From a bacterium BMS3Abin08 (GTDB lineage: Bacteria > Nitrospirota > Thermodesulfovibrionia > Thermodesulfovibrionales > JdFR-85): a stretch of DNA of 45,268 bases. Of the stretch, positions 5,462 through 15,123 are shown piece by piece. A model generated the notes under the pieces. That model was not told where the DNA came from. It searched no databases and saw only the letters and a program-made list of their open reading frames with translations. The translations under genes were made by a program, and so were the position numbers. The stretch is from NCBI GenBank assembly GCA_002897935.1, contig BDTA01000077.1, positions 1-45,268 on the forward strand, read 5' to 3'. Every line of letters starts with the position of its first letter. Position 1 is the first letter of the stretch.

Positions 5462-6904
5462 TCACCCCTTCACAACACCGATGGGCCTGAGCCTGGCCAC
5501 CTTCCTTGATATCCCGGCCCTGTGGACAACGTCAACCACGCTTGATATATCCTTGTATGCCTCAGACATCTCCTCTGCAAGCGTCCTCTTGCCTGCACTC
5601 ATAACATAGATCCCCGCATCCTCCATCTCCCTCCAGATGGCACGCCCCTTTGCCCTCTTAATCGCCTTGTGGCGTGACATTACACGGCCTGCGCCATGGC
5701 AGGTGGAGCCGAACGTCTGACTCATCGACCCTTCGGTCCCCACAAGCACAAAAGAGGCCCTTCCCATATCTCCCGGGATCAAAACAGGCTGTCCCACTTC
5801 CCTGTAGACATCGGGCAATTCGGGATGTCCCGGAGGGAATGCCCTCGTTGCTCCCTTTCTATGAACCACAAGCCTCTTCTTTTTTCCGTTCACAAGATGA
5901 TCTTCAACCTTGGCTATATTATGGGCGACATCATATACGAGACTCATACCCAGAGCGCCCGGTGAGATGCCGAGGGTATTCATTATCGTCTCTCTCGTCC
6001 AGTGCATGATGCACTGTCTGTTGGCCCAGGCATAGTTTGCCGCGGCCTTCATGGCTGCCATGTAATCCTGCGCCTCCTGTGAGCTTATGGGTGCACACGC
6101 AAGTTCCCTGTCCTTCAATCCTATCCCGTACTTCCTTGCAGCCCTCTCCATAACCTCCAGGAAGTCAGTACACACCTGGTGACCAAACCCCCTTGAACCG
6201 GTATGGATCATAACGGTAATCTGGTCTTTGAAGAGACCAAGGGCAGAGGCAACTCCCTCATCATAGATCTCGGAGACATACTGTATTTCAAGGAAATGGT
6301 TCCCGGAGCCAAGGGTCCCCTGCTGGGCACGGCCACGCTCATAGGCACGGTCGCTGATCAGGGAGGGGTCCGCCCCTTCAATGCACCCTCCGGATTCTGT
6401 CTTTTCAAGGTCATCCGGCTCACCCATCCCCTGCTCGACAGCCCAGCGTGCACCCTTCAGCAGGAGCCGTCTCTCCTCGTCCTTTGTGAGACGGATCCTC
6501 CCCTTGGATCCGACACCTGAAGGTATCTTGTTATACAGGACCCCGACGAGGTCCTTAATCCCGGGGAGCAGTTCCTCACGGGTGAGGTTGCTCCTCAGGA
6601 GCCTTACCCCTCAATTTATGTCATAGCCGACACCGCCGGGGGATACAATACCCGATTCCGAATCGAAGGCTGCAACCCCACCGATTGCAAAACCATATCC
6701 GGTATGGATATCCGGCATTGCAAGTGACGACGCAACAATCCCCGGAAGGGTTGCCACGTTTGCAACCTGGCGCACGGCGTCCTCTTCAAGAAGGTCCTCG
6801 AGCCCCCTGTCAACATAGATCACCCCGGGGACATTCATGCCGTCAATGAATCCGACGGGGACCCTCAGGCGGTTCTCATCTATCCTCTGAAGCTTCTCAA
6901 TCAT
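5462..6904 (-). CDS. rtcB: RNA-splicing ligase RtcB, predicted selenoprotein (UGA = Sec98)
   Basis: RtcB joins 2',3'-cyclic phosphate or 3'-phosphate RNA ends to 5'-OH ends using GTP and Mn2+. The frame is open from ATG 6904 to TGA 5462 apart from one internal TGA at 6613-6611, and read through it gives 480 aa, the family length. That TGA falls in [16 protein letters not shown], exactly where the family has the metal-binding cysteine (Cys98 in Pyrococcus horikoshii). Other ligands are intact at nearly the same numbers: D95, H203, H234, H328, and guanylylated H403 in STCHGAGR. Sequence before and after the TGA is fully conserved, so a decayed gene is unlikely. A SECIS-like hairpin follows the TGA. 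The archease gene lies 84 bp upstream on the same strand. An ordinary nonsense mutation or a sequencing error in a Cys codon (TGC/TGT) is the alternative. Confidence 0.88.
6583..6613 (-). promoter_or_regulatory. Candidate bacterial SECIS element in rtcB
   Basis: Directly from the TGA (6613-6611) the minus strand can form a two-part hairpin. A lower stem pairs TGAGG (6613-6609) with CCTCA (6587-6583). An upper 5-bp stem pairs GCTCC (6602-6598) with GGAGC (6594-6590) around a TGA loop at 6597-6595. A short UGA-proximal hairpin with a small G-containing apical loop is the known form of bacterial SECIS. The fold was made by eye. Confidence 0.6.
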
Positions 6905-7891: not shown

Positions 7892-7908
7892 CTGGCAAGT
7901 AATTTGCT
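7892..7908 (+). promoter_or_regulatory. Sigma-54 (RpoN) promoter
   Basis: CTGGCAAGTAATTTGCT matches the -24/-12 consensus YTGGCACGRNNNTTGCW. GG is at 7894-7895 and GC at 7906-7907, exactly 10 nt apart. Transcription would begin near 7919, 67 nt before the first gene of the receiver/Hnd operon. Such promoters need an AAA+ activator; an NtrC-type protein is encoded at 41796-43190, but a link between them is inference. Confidence 0.8.
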
Positions 7909-7985: not shown

Positions 7986-8747
7986 ATGGATAAAGGGAAG
8001 ATTATAGTCCTTGACGACGACCCCGCCGTAACGCTGAGTTGCAAAAGGATACTTGGAGCAGAGGGTTTCAATATAACCACTGTGAGCAGGGGAGAGGATG
8101 CGGTAAGGCAGCTTGAAAAGGAGGAGTATGAACTCCTGATTACCGACATAAGACTGCCTGACGTATCGGGGATTGAGGTTGTGAAGGAGGCCCGTGTGAT
8201 CCAGCCGAACACCGACGTCGTTGTTATTACCGGATACCCCACTCTTGAAGACGCAAAGGAGTCCATACGTCTTGGAGCCTTTGAGTATATTGAAAAACCC
8301 TTCACCCCTGAATTCATGATAAACGTTGCAAGAAAGATATTCGACCGGAGGGGCTGGATACTCCGCCAGGCATACATCAATGAATTCAGGAACTATATAG
8401 TGCCTCTGCGGGACAGGGAAAACCCCGTTGTCTTCTACAAGGAAGGGGTCTGGGCAAGACCCACGAAAAGCGGCCTCTGGGAGATAGGATACGACCTGAG
8501 ATATGAGATGGCCTCCGGGGAGATGCTTTATGTTGACTACCTGAAGGTTGAGAAGGTAAAGGCAGGTGAGCCCTTCGCACGGCTGCTGACCGGATCGGGT
8601 AAGATAATCGATATCCCCGCACCCATGACGTCCGACATCAGGGAGTTCAACACAAAGGCCAATGATGTAATCGGTTCTTTACTTAAAGAGCACCTCTCGG
8701 AAGGCTGGCTTGTCTGGCTTGCAAGGGTGGTGCCCCTTGAGCTTTAA
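7986..8747 (+). CDS. Response-regulator receiver fused to a GcvH-like lipoyl-carrier domain
   Basis: The 253-aa protein has two parts. Residues 4-120 form a receiver domain with the acidic cluster D10-D12, phospho-acceptor D54 in LLITD, T82 in VVITG and K104 in IEKPF. Residues 155-250 resemble glycine-cleavage H protein: VWARPTKSGLWEIGYD, then VKAGEPFARLLTGSGK, then PAPMTSDIREFN and SEGWLVWL. These match the H-protein order of hammerhead fold, lipoyl-lysine turn, AP(V/M)SG turn and C-terminal EGWL. K206 sits near the lipoylated lysine, with about a one-residue difference in spacing. There is no DNA-binding domain. A GGAGGG ribosome site precedes ATG 7986. It leads a sigma-54 operon of redox subunits, so a phosphorylation-controlled carrier or scaffold role is possible but unproven. 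Confidence 0.8.
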   Translation: MDKGKIIVLDDDPAVTLSCKRILGAEGFNITTVSRGEDAVRQLEKEEYELLITDIRLPDVSGIEVVKEARVIQPNTDVVVITGYPTLEDAKESIRLGAFEYIEKPFTPEFMINVARKIFDRRGWILRQAYINEFRNYIVPLRDRENPVVFYKEGVWARPTKSGLWEIGYDLRYEMASGEMLYVDYLKVEKVKAGEPFARLLTGSGKIIDIPAPMTSDIREFNTKANDVIGSLLKEHLSEGWLVWLARVVPLEL

Positions 8748-8806: not shown

Positions 8807-9670
8807 ATGCCAGGCAGTATTTTGATTGTAGACGATGAAAGCGTTGTGATAAAGAGCTGCGAAAGGGTGCTCATACCCGAGGGTTATAATGTCTCGGGGG
8901 TTACAGGTGTAGCGGAAGCAATGGAAGTTCTGAAAAATGGAGATTTCGATATCGTTGTGACCGACCTCAAAATGCCCGGGATCGACGGCCTTGAACTTAT
9001 ACGCTGGATCAGGAACAACAACTCCAAGATAGGCATAGTAGTAATAACCGGTTATCCCTCTCAGGAGAGCATCAAGGATGCCCTGGAACTGGGCATTATC
9101 GATTACCTGCCCAAACCTTTCTCCCCCCAGTTGCTTATAGATGTCACGGAGAAGGCCATCACCGCGGTCAGGGCGCAGAAGGTTGAAGAAAAACCCCTGG
9201 ATGTCCGTGACGTTGAAAAGAAACTGAAGGAAATCATGAAGGTAATAGACAAAAACAGGAACAAACCGGGGGCATTGATTCCCGTGCTCCAACAGACCCA
9301 GGAGATAGTCGGATATCTCCCGCCCCCGGTCCAGAGGATAATTGCCCGTGAGTTGAACATCCCGGTCAGTCAGGTTCATGGGGTGGTATCCTTCTACTCC
9401 TTCTTTACCATGAAACCCAAGGGCAAGCATAACGTCCGTGTATGTCTTGGAACTGCATGCTATGTGAAGAGGGCGACCGAAATCCTGGAAAAGCTGAAAG
9501 AACACCTGGGAATTGAAGCGGGAGGCATCACCGATGACAAGAAGTTTTCCCTCGAGACCGTCAGATGTCTGGGCGCCTGTGGTCTGGCGCCTGTGGTGGT
9601 CGTGGATCATGACACACATGGAAGTGTTGATCCTGTCAAGGTGTCGAAAATAATTGATCAGTACAATTGA
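8807..9670 (+). CDS. Response-regulator receiver fused to HndA/NuoE-type [2Fe-2S] subunit
   Basis: The 287-aa protein joins a receiver domain (residues 1-122; D9/D10, D53, T81, K103) to a complete thioredoxin-like [2Fe-2S] NuoE/HndA domain (about 131-287). The cluster ligands are visible as C213-x4-C218 and C254-x3-C258 (VCLGTACY and VRCLGACG). HndA/NuoE passes electrons from or to the FMN site of the HndC/NuoF partner. The receiver resembles that of the preceding gene (both have VVITGYP and KPF), suggesting duplication. The gene lies 59 nt downstream of that gene behind a GGAGGTTAG ribosome site. A receiver on this subunit is unusual; it may gate assembly or electron flow (inference). Confidence 0.9.
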   Translation: MPGSILIVDDESVVIKSCERVLIPEGYNVSGVTGVAEAMEVLKNGDFDIVVTDLKMPGIDGLELIRWIRNNNSKIGIVVITGYPSQESIKDALELGIIDYLPKPFSPQLLIDVTEKAITAVRAQKVEEKPLDVRDVEKKLKEIMKVIDKNRNKPGALIPVLQQTQEIVGYLPPPVQRIIARELNIPVSQVHGVVSFYSFFTMKPKGKHNVRVCLGTACYVKRATEILEKLKEHLGIEAGGITDDKKFSLETVRCLGACGLAPVVVVDHDTHGSVDPVKVSKIIDQYN

Positions 9671-9690
9671 CATCCCGTTTAATATTAAAC

Positions 9691-9999
9691 AGAGTCTGTG
9701 TATAAATGTCTTTTTGTCGTCATGCCCCGAAAGCATTCGAGGCATTCAGGAAGCATTGAAAAGAATAGATTCCGGCTTAAAAACTGCCGGAATGACAGAT
9801 AGAAAAATTGAATTAATAAACAAACACTATGTAGAGACGCCATTAATGGCGTCTCTACAAAATGACCGGTGGTTCGGTTTATATTTTTGTCATACCCGAA
9901 GTCTGTAGTCGGGTATCCGGAAGTTACTGAAAAGACTGGATTCCCGCCCAACAGACCGCGGGAATGACGGCTCTATTGTTGAGTTTATACACAGACGCT
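9691..9999. mobile_element. MITE-like element with terminal inverted repeats (composite)
   Basis: The left end AGAGTCTGTGTATAAA (9691-9706) is matched by its inverse TTTATACACAGACGCT (9984-9999), with one mismatch. The right 116 bp (9884-9999) match 25424-25539 at all but about five positions. No coding capacity is seen, so mobilisation would need a transposase elsewhere. It sits inside the receiver/Hnd operon, between the HndA and HndB genes. Confidence 0.7.
9831..9858. repeat. Perfect 28-bp palindrome
   Basis: GTAGAGACGCCATT is followed at once by its exact reverse complement with no loop. It lies within the composite MITE-like element, and as RNA it could form a strong hairpin inside the operon transcript. 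Confidence 0.85.
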
Positions 10000-10019
10000 A
10001 AATAAAAATGGAGGCAACC

Positions 10020-10403
10020 ATGCCGAAGCTTACTATTGAAGACCTGAAAAAGATAAAGGAGGAGTATAAGGCAAAAACCGCCCTCAGGGGGGAGAAACAC
10101 AGGGCAAGGGTGACCGTCCATATGGGTACTTGCGGACTGGCAGCCGGGGCAAGGGATATCATGAATATTATCCTTGAGGAGCTGGAAAAGGCGGGCAGCA
10201 CAGATGTTGTCGTAACCACATCGGGATGTGCGGGCCTCTGCAGCCGTGAGCCGATGATCACCGTAAATATACTGGATGATCCGCCGGTAAAATATTGCAA
10301 TCTTGATGAAAAGAAGACGAGGAGGATAGTAACGGAACATATTATAGGAGGCAAGGTTGTGGAGGACCTCGCCCTTGTTCAGGGCTGTGAAACGTCATAC
10401 TGA
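10020..10403 (+). CDS. hndB: HndB-like thioredoxin-fold [2Fe-2S] ferredoxin subunit
   Basis: The 127-aa protein resembles the small HndB subunit of NADP-reducing and electron-bifurcating hydrogenases. Visible features are the helical start LTIEDLKKIKEEY, VHMGTCGLAAGARD with C38, and TTSGCAGLCSREP with C70 and C74. Three rather than four cysteines is, as I recall, usual for this subfamily. Start 10020 is chosen because GGAGG (10011-10015) stands 4 nt before it; an ATG at 10008 overlaps that ribosome site. The C-terminus VEDLALVQGCETSY adds one more cysteine. It follows the MITE-like insertion and precedes the HndC-like gene by 108 bp. Confidence 0.85.
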   Translation: MPKLTIEDLKKIKEEYKAKTALRGEKHRARVTVHMGTCGLAAGARDIMNIILEELEKAGSTDVVVTTSGCAGLCSREPMITVNILDDPPVKYCNLDEKKTRRIVTEHIIGGKVVEDLALVQGCETSY

Positions 10404-10511: not shown

Positions 10512-12347
10512 ATGTATAGAGCCAATCTGATGCTGTGTGGAGGAACGGGCTGTATCGCGGGCGGCAGCCTGAAAATAAAGGATGCCCTCATCGAGGAACT
10601 GAAAAAGCATAAACTCCAGGATGAAATATCCGTAGTCCTCACCGGTTGTAATGGGTTCTGCGCTCAGGGACCTCTTTTGATCATCCATCCTGAAGACACC
10701 TTCTATGAGAAGCTGAAGCCTGAAGACATACCGTTTCTCATCGAGGAACACTTTATCAAGGGACGGCCTGTTGAGAAGTTTATGTACCGGGAGCCCAAGA
10801 AACGATCCGCCGTACCATCCATCAACGAGATCCCTTTCTTTAAGTTCCAGGTGCTCCGCGCACTGAGGAACAAGGGCCTTGTGGACCCGGAGAGTATAGA
10901 TGAGTACATCGCCCGTGACGGGTACATGGCTGCCGGCAAGGTGCTCCTTGAGATGACCCCTGAACAGGTCATTAAGGAGGTGAAGGACTCAGGCATAAGG
11001 GGCCGCGGCGGTGCCGGATTCCCGACCGGACTCAAGTGGGAATTCTGCTCCAGGGCCAAAGGGGATCAGAAGTATATCCTCTGTAACGGTGATGAGGGCG
11101 ACCCCGGCGCCTTCATGGACCGGAGCATAATGGAGGCCGACCCCCACGTCGTCCTTGAGGGCATGATTATAGCTGCAAAGGCAATAGGGGCGTCCAAGGG
11201 TTATATCTATGTGAGAGCCGAGTATCCCCTTGCAGTGAGCCGTCTTCAGATTGCGATAGACCAGGCAAAGGAGTATGGCCTCATCGGCGAGGATATCCTG
11301 AACTCGGGATTCAACCTCGATATCGAGATATACCTGGGCGCCGGAGCATTTGTCTGCGGTGAGGAGACGGCACTGATGCGGTCCCTTGAAGGCAAGAGGG
11401 GCATGCCTATACCAAGGCCGCCTTTCCCGGTAAACAAGGGGCTCTGGGGCAAACCCACGGTGCTCAATAACGTGGAAACCTATGCAAACATCCCCCAGAT
11501 AATCCTGAACGGGGCCGAGTGGTTCAAGAGCCTCGGGACCGAGAAATCAACAGGGACAAAGGTCTTTGCCCTTACAGGTGCGGTAAACAATATCGGCCTG
11601 ATAGAAGTCCCGATGGGGACTCCGCTGAGAACCATTATATTTGACATAGGCGGCGGGATCAGAAAGGGTAGAAAGTTCAAGGCGGTTCAGCTTGGCGGAC
11701 CCTCGGGAGGGTGCGTGCCGGAGCATCTCCTTGAGACCCCCGTCACTTATGAGGATATCGTAAAAACAGGGGCTATCGTGGGTTCAGGCGGCATGGTGGT
11801 CATGGACGATAACAACTGCATGGTTAATGTTGCAAGGTTCTTCCTTGAGTTTACCGCTGATGAATCATGCGGGAAGTGCACGCCCTGCAGGATAGGAACA
11901 AGGGTAATGCTTGACAGATTGATAGATATCACCGAGGGTCGCGGCAAGGAGGAAGACATCGAAATCCTTCAAGACCTCTCAGGTGACATTATCAAGACCT
12001 CCCTCTGCGGTCTTGGACAGACTGCGCCGAATCCCGTTCTTACTACAATTCGTTATTTTAAAGATGAATACGAATCGCACATACATGACAACTGGTGCAA
12101 GGCAGGCGTATGCAGGGAACTCTCAACGTTCTATATCGATGAAGAGGCCTGCACGGGATGCACCGTATGTGCAAGGAACTGCCCGCAGCATGCGATTACA
12201 GGCGAAAAGAAAAAACCTCACCATATCCACCAGGAACTCTGTATCAAGTGCCGGACCTGTTATGAGAAATGCAAGTTCGGTGCAGTGAAGGTAGGGCCGC
12301 GGGACATGTTTGAAAAAGAGCAGACCGGAGCGTCTGTTGAGGGTTGA
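10512..12347 (+). CDS. hndC: HndC/NuoF-like NAD(P)H-binding flavoprotein subunit
   Basis: The 611-aa protein has the full HndC/HydB domain order. An N-terminal thioredoxin-like [2Fe-2S] domain carries C9, C14, C46 and C50. The NuoF core has GRGGAGFPTGLKW and CNGDEGDPGAFMDRS for FMN and NAD(P)H binding, then an SLBB domain, then CGKCTPCRIG for the [4Fe-4S] cluster. The C-terminal ferredoxin domain binds two [4Fe-4S] clusters: CTGCTVCARNCP and CIKCRTCYEKC. It would oxidise NAD(P)H or reduce NAD(P)+ and exchange electrons with its neighbours. In known Hnd/Hyd complexes the next gene is an [FeFe]-hydrogenase; here it is a NuoG-like protein. A GGAGG site precedes ATG 10512. Confidence 0.93.
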   Translation: MYRANLMLCGGTGCIAGGSLKIKDALIEELKKHKLQDEISVVLTGCNGFCAQGPLLIIHPEDTFYEKLKPEDIPFLIEEHFIKGRPVEKFMYREPKKRSAVPSINEIPFFKFQVLRALRNKGLVDPESIDEYIARDGYMAAGKVLLEMTPEQVIKEVKDSGIRGRGGAGFPTGLKWEFCSRAKGDQKYILCNGDEGDPGAFMDRSIMEADPHVVLEGMIIAAKAIGASKGYIYVRAEYPLAVSRLQIAIDQAKEYGLIGEDILNSGFNLDIEIYLGAGAFVCGEETALMRSLEGKRGMPIPRPPFPVNKGLWGKPTVLNNVETYANIPQIILNGAEWFKSLGTEKSTGTKVFALTGAVNNIGLIEVPMGTPLRTIIFDIGGGIRKGRKFKAVQLGGPSGGCVPEHLLETPVTYEDIVKTGAIVGSGGMVVMDDNNCMVNVARFFLEFTADESCGKCTPCRIGTRVMLDRLIDITEGRGKEEDIEILQDLSGDIIKTSLCGLGQTAPNPVLTTIRYFKDEYESHIHDNWCKAGVCRELSTFYIDEEACTGCTVCARNCPQHAITGEKKKPHHIHQELCIKCRTCYEKCKFGAVKVGPRDMFEKEQTGASVEG

Positions 12348-12485
12348 CGGTCACATGATTTTAAATGAGACCCAAACCGGGCGATTCTTTTGCCTAATAG
12401 ACATCAAGTACCGGATGGTACTATGGTATCGGGTTTGAACGGCTTCCGTTTTTATCCCGTACTCATTACGGTGATAAAACCGCCT

Positions 12486-12518
12486 CGGAGTCCCGACTTG
12501 ATGTCGGGACGAGAATGA
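12486..12518. repeat. Dispersed 33-bp hairpin repeat, copy 2
   Basis: Identical to 81-113. It lies in the 310-bp gap (12348-12657) between the HndC-like and NuoG-like genes, which otherwise contains no gene. Confidence 0.75.
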
Positions 12519-12657
12519 ATGAAAACCCTATACCATTGTACCAGCCAGCCGTAGAATCGCTCAACTTGGGTGAGAAAAACCTGTTTTTTTGATAGCCTTA
12601 TCTGTCGGGAACAGGAAAAATACAGAAAACCGAATATTACGAAGGAGGATTCCGGAG

Positions 12658-15123
12658 ATGATAGAACTGACGATTAACGACAAGAAACTCCAGGCAGGAA
12701 AGGGGATGACCATCCTTAACATTGCAAAGGAGAATAACATAAATATACCTCATCTCTGCTGGGACAGGAGGTTAAAGCCCTATGGCGGCTGCAGGCTCTG
12801 TCTCGTCGAGGTCGAGGGGCAGCGGAAACTACTCGCTGCTTGCTCCACGCCGGCGGAAAACGGCATGGTTATTCATACGGACACCCCTACACTCAGGAAG
12901 GCCCGCAAGACAGTGCTTGAACTCCTTCTCGTCCACCACCCCCTTGACTGTCCTATCTGTGACAAGGCGGGCGAGTGTAGTCTCCAGGACCTTGCATATC
13001 AGTACGGTCCCTCACACAGCAGGTTCTACGGCGAGAGGAAACATGACCCGGAGGCATCAAGTCCGCTGATTGAGAGGAACCCCAACCGCTGTATCCTCTG
13101 TGGACGCTGTGTCAGGGTCTGCTGGGAACACCAGGGGGTAGGTGCAATCAGCCTGATAGGCAGGGGCTTCAAGACAAAGGTCAGCCCTGCCTTTGAAGAG
13201 ACTCTTGACTGCGAATTCTGTGGACAGTGTGTGGATGCCTGTCCCGTTGGAGCCCTCGGCACCAAACCCTACAAGTACAGGGCCCGGGCATGGTTTCTTG
13301 AGAGCACGGATACGATCTGTCCATACTGCAGTGTTGGATGCACACTTACTCTTGATCTCAGAGAAGGCAGGATACTCAGGGTAAGAGGTGTTGACGGTAT
13401 CGGTATAAACAAGGGGGACCTCTGCGGAAAGGGGAGATTCGGGTTCGACTTTATTTACAGTGACGCAAGGCTCAAGGCCCCCCTCATCAAGAAAGACGGG
13501 GAGTTTCAGCAGGTATCCTGGGAAGAGGCCATCTACTTTATCTCCGAGAGGCTCAAGGAGATAAAGGAAAAATACGGGTCTGAGAGCATCGGAGCAATAG
13601 GCTCTGCACGGGCAACCCTTGAGGACAACTACATGCTCCAGAAGTTCATGCGGGAAGTGATAGGCACTGATAACCTTGACACCTCTGCAAGATTAGGGTT
13701 TGCCTGGGCTCTGAAGGGTATGGAAGACACTTACGGCATCAAGCTGAACCCCATAAATCTTGACTCCCCTCTGGGGAAGGAGGCCGTCCTTGTTGTTGAA
13801 ACGGACATAACCTCGACGCATCCCATCTTCGGCCTGAAGTTTATAGAGGCCAAGCAGGGGGGCTCGGAGGTAATTGTCCTGGACCCCAGGAAAACAAAGC
13901 TTGCCAGGAGGGCATCTAAGTGGCTTCGTAACAGACCCGGTACTGCCACGGCCTTCCTCAACGGTATAATCAATCTTGCCTTCAAGGCAGGCGTACATGT
14001 GAAAAACGATATCACCACAGAGGGGCTCGATGCCTTGCAGGATTCGGTAAAGGATTATTCACCGGAAAAGGTCTCCGGGATTACGGGGATACCGGTGGAT
14101 GCGTTTCAGGCGGTCGCCGGGTCTTTTATAAACGCAGAAAGCCGCCTCCTCACCCTTACACTCGGGGCTGCCGAAAACCAGAAGGGGATCGAGACGGTGC
14201 ATGCCGCCGCCAACCTGCTGATGCTTTTGGGTGAGGGGCCGGAGGCGCTCCAGATACCTGCTGATTACGCAAACACATACGGCGCCTGGCTGATGAACGT
14301 CCGTCCGCTGAACGGCGGCAAGGACCTCTATGAAATGCTCTACTCCCCCGGGGCCTTAAAGGCCCTCTATGTAATGGGTGAAGACCCCCTTGTCACAATG
14401 CCCGAGGCAAATCTCATTGAAGAGACCCTGCGTGGGCTTGAACTCCTCATAGTCCAGGATATACGCCTCTCGGAGATTGCCGGGTATGCCCATGTGGTAC
14501 TCCCTGCAACGAGTTGGGCGGAAAAGGAAGGCACCTTTATAAACTCGCAGGGCCTTCCGCAACCCCTGCCCAAGGTGGTGGCACCGGCGGGTGATTCCAC
14601 ACATGACTGGAAAATCATCAGGAACATTGCGAGGGCTATCAGGCATGACCTGGGCACGATAGAGTTATCCACACTGAAGAATGAAATAGGACAGATGCCC
14701 ACTGAAGCGGGAAACCGGAAGTGGAGGTTCGTCCCCTCGGAATGGGAACTGAAAGAGGCCCCTGATGAAGAGTATCCGATCCTGATGGTTACCGGGAATA
14801 TTATGCAGCACTCAGGCTCTCTCTCAGTCATGTCAAAGAGTCTGAGCCACGTCCTCTCCGATGCCTTTGTCCAGATAAGCCCAGAGGATGCGGGGAGGTT
14901 CGGAGTCGATGACGGTGAGTTCATGAAGATCACATCAAAGAAGGGTTCCGTGCTTATCAAGGCAAGAATATCCGATGAAATCCCCGAAGGGATGCTCTTT
15001 GTGCCTCTTCACTTCGCCCATGCCAGGGTGGATACCCTCACCTCGGTACAAAGGGACGGGTCCGCCCTTCTTACACCCGTCAACATCACGGCACAGAAGG
15101 ACAACGGTGGAAGCCCGGGTTGA
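12658..15123 (+). CDS. NuoG/formate-dehydrogenase-like iron-sulfur molybdopterin-fold subunit
   Basis: The 821-aa protein starts with a [2Fe-2S] domain (C34, C45, C48, C62), a His/Cys [4Fe-4S] site (H94, C98, C101, C107) and two [4Fe-4S] clusters (C145/148/151/155 and C185/188/191/195). Then comes the MopB-type [4Fe-4S] site (C221, C224, C228, C256) and a molybdopterin-oxidoreductase fold to the C-terminal dinucleotide-binding domain. At the place where formate dehydrogenases have Cys or Sec before His, this protein has SARLGFAW (G347). It is therefore probably not a formate dehydrogenase, but a NuoG-like electron wire or an enzyme of unknown substrate. Start 12658 follows AAGGAGG (12642-12648). 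Confidence 0.87.
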   Translation: MIELTINDKKLQAGKGMTILNIAKENNINIPHLCWDRRLKPYGGCRLCLVEVEGQRKLLAACSTPAENGMVIHTDTPTLRKARKTVLELLLVHHPLDCPICDKAGECSLQDLAYQYGPSHSRFYGERKHDPEASSPLIERNPNRCILCGRCVRVCWEHQGVGAISLIGRGFKTKVSPAFEETLDCEFCGQCVDACPVGALGTKPYKYRARAWFLESTDTICPYCSVGCTLTLDLREGRILRVRGVDGIGINKGDLCGKGRFGFDFIYSDARLKAPLIKKDGEFQQVSWEEAIYFISERLKEIKEKYGSESIGAIGSARATLEDNYMLQKFMREVIGTDNLDTSARLGFAWALKGMEDTYGIKLNPINLDSPLGKEAVLVVETDITSTHPIFGLKFIEAKQGGSEVIVLDPRKTKLARRASKWLRNRPGTATAFLNGIINLAFKAGVHVKNDITTEGLDALQDSVKDYSPEKVSGITGIPVDAFQAVAGSFINAESRLLTLTLGAAENQKGIETVHAAANLLMLLGEGPEALQIPADYANTYGAWLMNVRPLNGGKDLYEMLYSPGALKALYVMGEDPLVTMPEANLIEETLRGLELLIVQDIRLSEIAGYAHVVLPATSWAEKEGTFINSQGLPQPLPKVVAPAGDSTHDWKIIRNIARAIRHDLGTIELSTLKNEIGQMPTEAGNRKWRFVPSEWELKEAPDEEYPILMVTGNIMQHSGSLSVMSKSLSHVLSDAFVQISPEDAGRFGVDDGEFMKITSKKGSVLIKARISDEIPEGMLFVPLHFAHARVDTLTSVQRDGSALLTPVNITAQKDNGGSPG

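Follow-up and report, generated by a model that had tools for sequence, protein, structure and literature searches.

In the Nitrospirota bacterium BMS3Abin08, a 253-aa protein encoded on the forward strand at positions 7986..8747 of the analyzed stretch of DNA (the window, 45,268 nt) joins a complete response-regulator receiver to an H-protein fold that has lost its cofactor site, and its gene heads an operon for a putative electron-bifurcating complex. The preferred reading of this protein, termed RR-GcvH, is that a haem-sensing kinase controls the bifurcating complex both by transcription and through receivers, RR-GcvH being a docking subunit that is switched by phosphorylation and carries no lipoyl group; the probability of this reading is put at about 0.5. 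The encoding of RR-GcvH together with the enzyme, and the presence of a receiver on the enzyme's own BfuC subunit, suggests direct signal control of a bifurcating enzyme.

The two-part architecture proposed in the first-pass annotation, a receiver fused to a GcvH-like C-terminal half, is borne out by the open reading frame, the PF00072 and PF01597 domain searches, and the AlphaFold and Foldseek results. The receiver occupies residues 6-113 (8001..8324, forward strand; PF00072, E = 3e-25), and receiver alignment places the phospho-acceptor at D54 (8145-8147). All of the receiver-bearing homologues conserve D10-D12, D54, and K104 (71/71), and position 82 is a threonine in 67 and a serine in three of these 71 copies. 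With the acidic pocket, phospho-aspartate, threonine, and lysine in place, RR-GcvH is by sequence a response regulator with every residue needed for phosphorylation. Among the homologues read, all those not truncated at the edge of a contig carry the fused receiver (71 with a receiver among 72 non-redundant homologues).

The GcvH-like domain covers residues 151-245 (8436..8720, forward strand), and several searches indicate, far beyond chance, that residues ~150-253 are predicted to adopt the H-protein fold. The PF01597 (GCV_H) score falls just below its cut-off for the protein itself (21.7 bits against 22.2; E = 2e-4), above it in the genome-wide scan (23 bits), and well above it for many of the homologues, one of which scores 36 bits. 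A profile of the domain built from 24 homologues matches solved H-proteins at E = 2.6e-6, and hhalign pairs the domain with the genome's own GcvH at a probability of 94.7% (E = 6e-8). The match list from Foldseek with the full-length model was dominated by receivers and therefore the C-terminal domain was folded separately. The AlphaFold model of the isolated domain (~150-253), based on 54 homologues, has a pLDDT of 88.4 and a pTM of 0.83, and in Foldseek the PDB matches with E ≤ 0.001 occupy ranks 1-22 and are all H-proteins (22/22; prob 1.00, TM ~0.6), in keeping with the structural resemblance to GcvH anticipated for residues 150-253. The domain is under purifying selection (median dN/dS 0.068, compared to 0.049 for the receiver), with Y151, G154, W156, W165, E166, G168, D170, and R172 invariant in 72/72 homologues and ~20 residues near-invariant across the class.

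The lipoyl lysine of GcvH occupies the tip of a hairpin, the counterpart of which in RR-GcvH is formed by residues 196-211 (8571..8618, forward strand), as placed by HMMER, hhalign, and the homologue alignment. The hairpin of RR-GcvH is one residue longer than that of GcvH, and HMMER and hhalign agree that G205 (8598-8600) stands opposite the lipoyl lysine and that K206 (8601-8603), which the first-pass annotation had located near the lipoyl site, is indeed near and one residue past the lipoyl column. That column holds a glycine in 71 of the 72 homologues, while position 206 is variable (Q 24, K 23, R 12, N 4, H 2, T 2, D 2, A 1, E 1, G 1), with the 23 lysines found mostly in close relatives. 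The Glu-Ser-x-Lys context of GcvH is missing from the hairpin. Together, the variable position 206 and the glycine in the lipoyl column appear to rule out lipoylation at K206, and the fold has remained strongly constrained by purifying selection despite the loss of the prosthetic site. The PF03099 scan of the genome detected no lipoate-ligase gene, which the first pass had suggested looking for, beside the operon; the two PF03099 genes are on contigs C76 and C47, and a true GcvH with an intact lipoyl lysine is encoded on another contig, C105. In the loci of relatives that were compared, the conserved neighbourhood of RR-GcvH contains no glycine-cleavage or lipoylation genes.

RR-GcvH shares the fold and overall sequence pattern of GcvH (PF01597) and differs from it in the glycine that replaces the lipoyl lysine, the fused receiver, and the lack of surrounding glycine-cleavage genes. 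Another parallel, for an H-protein fold outside glycine cleavage and next to redox genes is LbpA, the GcvH-like lipoate-binding protein of the sHdr sulfur-oxidation system, which is lipoylated and is accompanied by lipoylation genes of its own (PMC10332631); in RR-GcvH, by contrast, the lysine is not conserved, the operon lacks lipoylation genes, and the neighbours are Bfu and signalling genes rather than shdr. Because the defining lysine was tested for and is not kept, RR-GcvH is predicted to be neither an H-protein nor an LbpA-type carrier, despite its fold.

Directly downstream on the forward strand lie the genes that make this a redox operon with HndA/B/C-like members, as had been claimed from the first reading. 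RR-BfuC (8807..9670, 287 aa) joins a receiver (PF00072, 2e-28) to a NuoE/HydC/HndA-type [2Fe-2S] subunit (PF01257, 1e-50) with cluster cysteines at 213, 218, 254, and 258, and is followed by an HndB-like small thioredoxin-fold ferredoxin (10008..10403, 131 aa; PF01257 3e-4, NF041612 1e-9). The next gene encodes BfuB (10512..12347, 611 aa), a HydB/HndC/NuoF-type FMN and Fe-S subunit with PF01512, PF10589, and PF00037 domains (FMN, 51K Fe-S, and ferredoxin; SLBB scored below its cut-off), which resembles HydB of a bifurcating hydrogenase (7q4v_B, E = 1e-258) and NiFe-BfuB (7t2r_B, 2e-248). The B2 cluster of Bfu enzymes is bound by C438, C476 (a threonine in roughly two thirds of family members), H525, C531, and C536, and the histidine is found only in bifurcating Bfu members (PMC9304861). 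BfuB retains all of these positions, as C436, T474, H523, C529, and C534, each exactly two residues below its published number. The last gene, annotated at 12589..15123 with a start that is probably nearer 12658, encodes a NuoG/FdhA-like BfuA in which domain searches and alignment find the catalytic cysteine and histidine of formate dehydrogenase replaced; the cysteine position is a glycine in those relatives whose motif was read.

By these features the enzyme falls within the Bfu family and is predicted to be a bifurcating complex. The operon has the same BfuC, HndB, BfuB, and BfuA complement with B2 ligands as the Bfu (HydABC-type) enzymes, including HndABCD and Nuo-Bfu (PMC9304861), and differs from them in the N-terminal receiver of BfuC, in RR-GcvH at the head of the operon, and in a BfuA without a recognized catalytic site; the terms 'response regulator', 'receiver', and 'glycine cleavage' are absent from PMC9304861. 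The gaps within the operon at 9671-10007 and 12348-12588 are unusually long and, because the first contains an inverted repeat of 20+20 nt (90% complementary) at 9825-9864, may hold small repeat elements. At three loci in relatives (L041, L109, and L111), two NfnA/NfnB-like genes (277 and 482 aa) are inserted between RR-GcvH and RR-BfuC, possibly linking the system to NADPH.

A near-perfect match to the sigma-54 (-24/-12) promoter, TGGCAAGTAATTTGCT, is present on the forward strand at 7893..7908, 78 bases 5' of the RR-GcvH start codon, and the window contains no second match (0.14 matches expected). Relatives have equivalent sites, with at least 10 of 12 positions matching, ahead of RR-GcvH at 21/38 loci (0.012 expected per region), a count that is not made up of independent observations, given the relatedness of the genomes and a single genome that contributes two of the loci. 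The site is missing in some relatives, chiefly those with a different operon layout. RpoN is encoded in the genome, and an upstream scan of the kinase gene described below returned no convincing sigma-54 site.

A signalling cluster is located elsewhere in the same genome, beside nuo genes (contig C62, locus L119, 4086-10983), and encodes a membrane histidine kinase that carries two c-haem motifs, a receiver-sigma-54 activator, two DRTGG proteins, two ATPase-domain proteins, a PHP protein, and a lone receiver. In many relatives, some or all of these signalling genes precede the RR-GcvH operon, often adjoining nuoABCD. Among 16 kinases examined, CxxCH is present in 15 and CxxxxCH in all 16, and since these motifs lie in a region expected between two membrane helices, the kinase is likely a di-haem periplasmic sensor. 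The receivers of RR-GcvH, RR-BfuC, the lone receiver, and the sigma-54 activator have in common an alpha-1 motif, S-C-[K/Q/E/R]-[R/K] (S18-C19-K20-R21 in RR-GcvH, within 8001..8324, forward strand), which is absent from all of the genome's other receivers that were examined (0/30) and lies in a helix that is a known kinase-specificity site (PMC2991266). The similarity of the four receivers at six alpha-1 positions was matched by 0/20,000 random quartets, a count that is descriptive because the positions were picked after the motif was noticed. Overall identity among the four (31-46%) is similar to that with the other receivers of the genome and therefore favours a shared kinase docking site over mere recent duplication. 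Docking motif, gene neighbourhood, and co-occurrence thus point to the four receivers and the haem kinase as a single putative signalling system.

RR-GcvH belongs to a group of mostly uncultured Nitrospirota. Among 396 Nitrospirota genomes, mostly drafts, the GcvH-like domain was detected at E < 1e-34 in 95, all from the class of BMS3Abin08; Nitrospirota outside that class gave weak matches in short, stand-alone frames, in line with true GcvH. A genome-collection scan reached close relatives, whose records carry the label Nitrospirota, Thermodesulfovibrio or, in one case, Deferribacteres, and a plasmid search returned no match. The RR-BfuC fusion is present in 93 of the 95 RR-GcvH genomes, including three (G359, G032, and G198) in which the two are unlinked, and lies within ~9 kb of RR-GcvH at 41 of 46 loci compared, so that the neighbourhood with HndA/B/C-like genes is as conserved as the first reading had supposed it might be. 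Two genomes (G017 and G259) have RR-GcvH without any RR-BfuC, and at three loci (L091-L093) RR-GcvH is downstream of a different nuoE-nuoF-nuoG-like set. A further 19 genomes carry RR-BfuC without RR-GcvH. In G020 (locus L161) and G188 (locus L165), RR-GcvH is absent although the signalling genes and RR-BfuC are contiguous, and in genome G040 only an RR-GcvH remnant broken by a stop is left. By this distribution RR-GcvH is a dispensable accessory to the RR-BfuC system: its clean loss in the 19 genomes indicates that the enzyme can do without it, and the retention of the kinase cluster and RR-BfuC in some genomes that lack it indicates an optional layer. Chaperone genes recur near these loci, with groES/groEL downstream of the system in L105, while L090 and L107 have groEL-like genes of the same cluster and L117 has hrcA-grpE-dnaK-dnaJ-like genes directly after RR-GcvH.

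In the preferred reading, the kinase would sense either a haem ligand or the redox state of the periplasm and raise transcription of rr-gcvH, rr-bfuC, hndB, bfuB, and bfuA from the sigma-54 promoter, presumably through the activator of the signalling cluster. The same kinase would also phosphorylate the receivers on the complex (BfuC) or beside it (RR-GcvH), and would thus have four: the sigma-54 activator, the lone receiver, RR-GcvH, and the receiver built into BfuC of the NADH/ferredoxin complex. The lipoyl-less H domain would act as a protein-binding module, and phosphorylation of D54 may alter its docking, either on a partner or on the Bfu/Nuo-type complex, and so tune electron flow. The stronger proposal that two-component phosphorylation directly gates flavin-based electron bifurcation, from haem kinase to the BfuC receiver and to a cofactor-less H-fold gate docked on the complex, is tentative and somewhat less probable. 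Of the carrier or scaffold with phosphorylation-dependent contacts suggested in the first-pass annotation, the carrier half fails, as the lysine is kept in only 23/72 homologues, the outcome that the first pass had named as refuting it, and the scaffold half is still the best explanation.

The main rival confines RR-GcvH to signalling: it would have no contact with the enzyme and would bind the kinase, the two ATPase-domain proteins, or the DRTGG and PHP proteins, in the role of phosphate sink, adaptor or scaffold. The conserved proximity to signalling genes fits such a role, as do two loci without Bfu genes at which RR-GcvH adjoins a kinase and a lone receiver (L117) or a lone receiver (L095), and the common docking motif would permit competition for phosphate; however, RR-GcvH is co-transcribed with the Bfu genes, apart from the signalling cluster, in the family of BMS3Abin08, and the near-total co-occurrence with RR-BfuC counts against a signalling-only role, leaving it perhaps a one-in-four proposition. 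Less likely still is mimicry of the H-protein, with one phosphorylation state occupying GcvP, GcvT, and lipoate enzymes and so regulating glycine cleavage or lipoylation. The fold and the true GcvH in the genome are compatible with mimicry, but the hairpin that partners read is altered in RR-GcvH, the conserved neighbourhood holds none of the corresponding genes, and no full-length GcvH was seen in four of the RR-GcvH genomes (G026, G033, G235, and G038), an absence that is suggestive only, as these are drafts and can miss contigs.

The remaining two explanations are both highly improbable. A lipoyl carrier on K206 with phosphorylation-dependent contacts would draw on the position of K206 at the hairpin turn and on the lysine being common there in the family of BMS3Abin08, yet position 206 is a residue other than lysine in 49 of the 72 homologues, G205 occupies the lipoyl column, and no lipoate genes adjoin. 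That the GcvH-like half is a functionless, decaying remnant, the least probable reading of all, would account for the lost prosthetic site, the missing gene in the 19 RR-BfuC genomes, and the broken G040 copy, but is at odds with the low dN/dS and the class-wide near-invariant residues.

Response regulators mostly act on DNA or second messengers. RR-GcvH has the complete receiver of response regulators with non-DNA-binding outputs and differs in its H-protein-fold output, for which no described case was found in the open-access papers searched; these papers likewise contained no description of a receiver-H-protein fusion, and the first-pass annotation had not known it as a described system. 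A class of the Nitrospirota places receivers both on a bifurcating-enzyme subunit and on a cofactor-stripped carrier fold encoded beside it. If the preferred reading is true, electron bifurcation would be under direct phospho-control and a prosthetic-group carrier would have been repurposed as a signalling output domain, while the haem kinase, sigma-54 promoter, and four receivers provide a testable control circuit for the Bfu operons of these little-known Nitrospirota.

Elsewhere in the window, rtcB (RNA ligase; 5462-6904, reverse strand) contains an in-frame TGA at 6611-6613 in place of the conserved metal-binding cysteine of GYDIN-C-G. The codon at that cysteine is TGA in 10 of 20 copies examined, including that of BMS3Abin08, and TGC or TGT in the other 10, and a CTCCT(G/C)AGGAG hairpin lies just 3' of most of the TGA codons. 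A tRNA-Sec is encoded in the genome, and the rtcB product looks like a selenocysteine RtcB.
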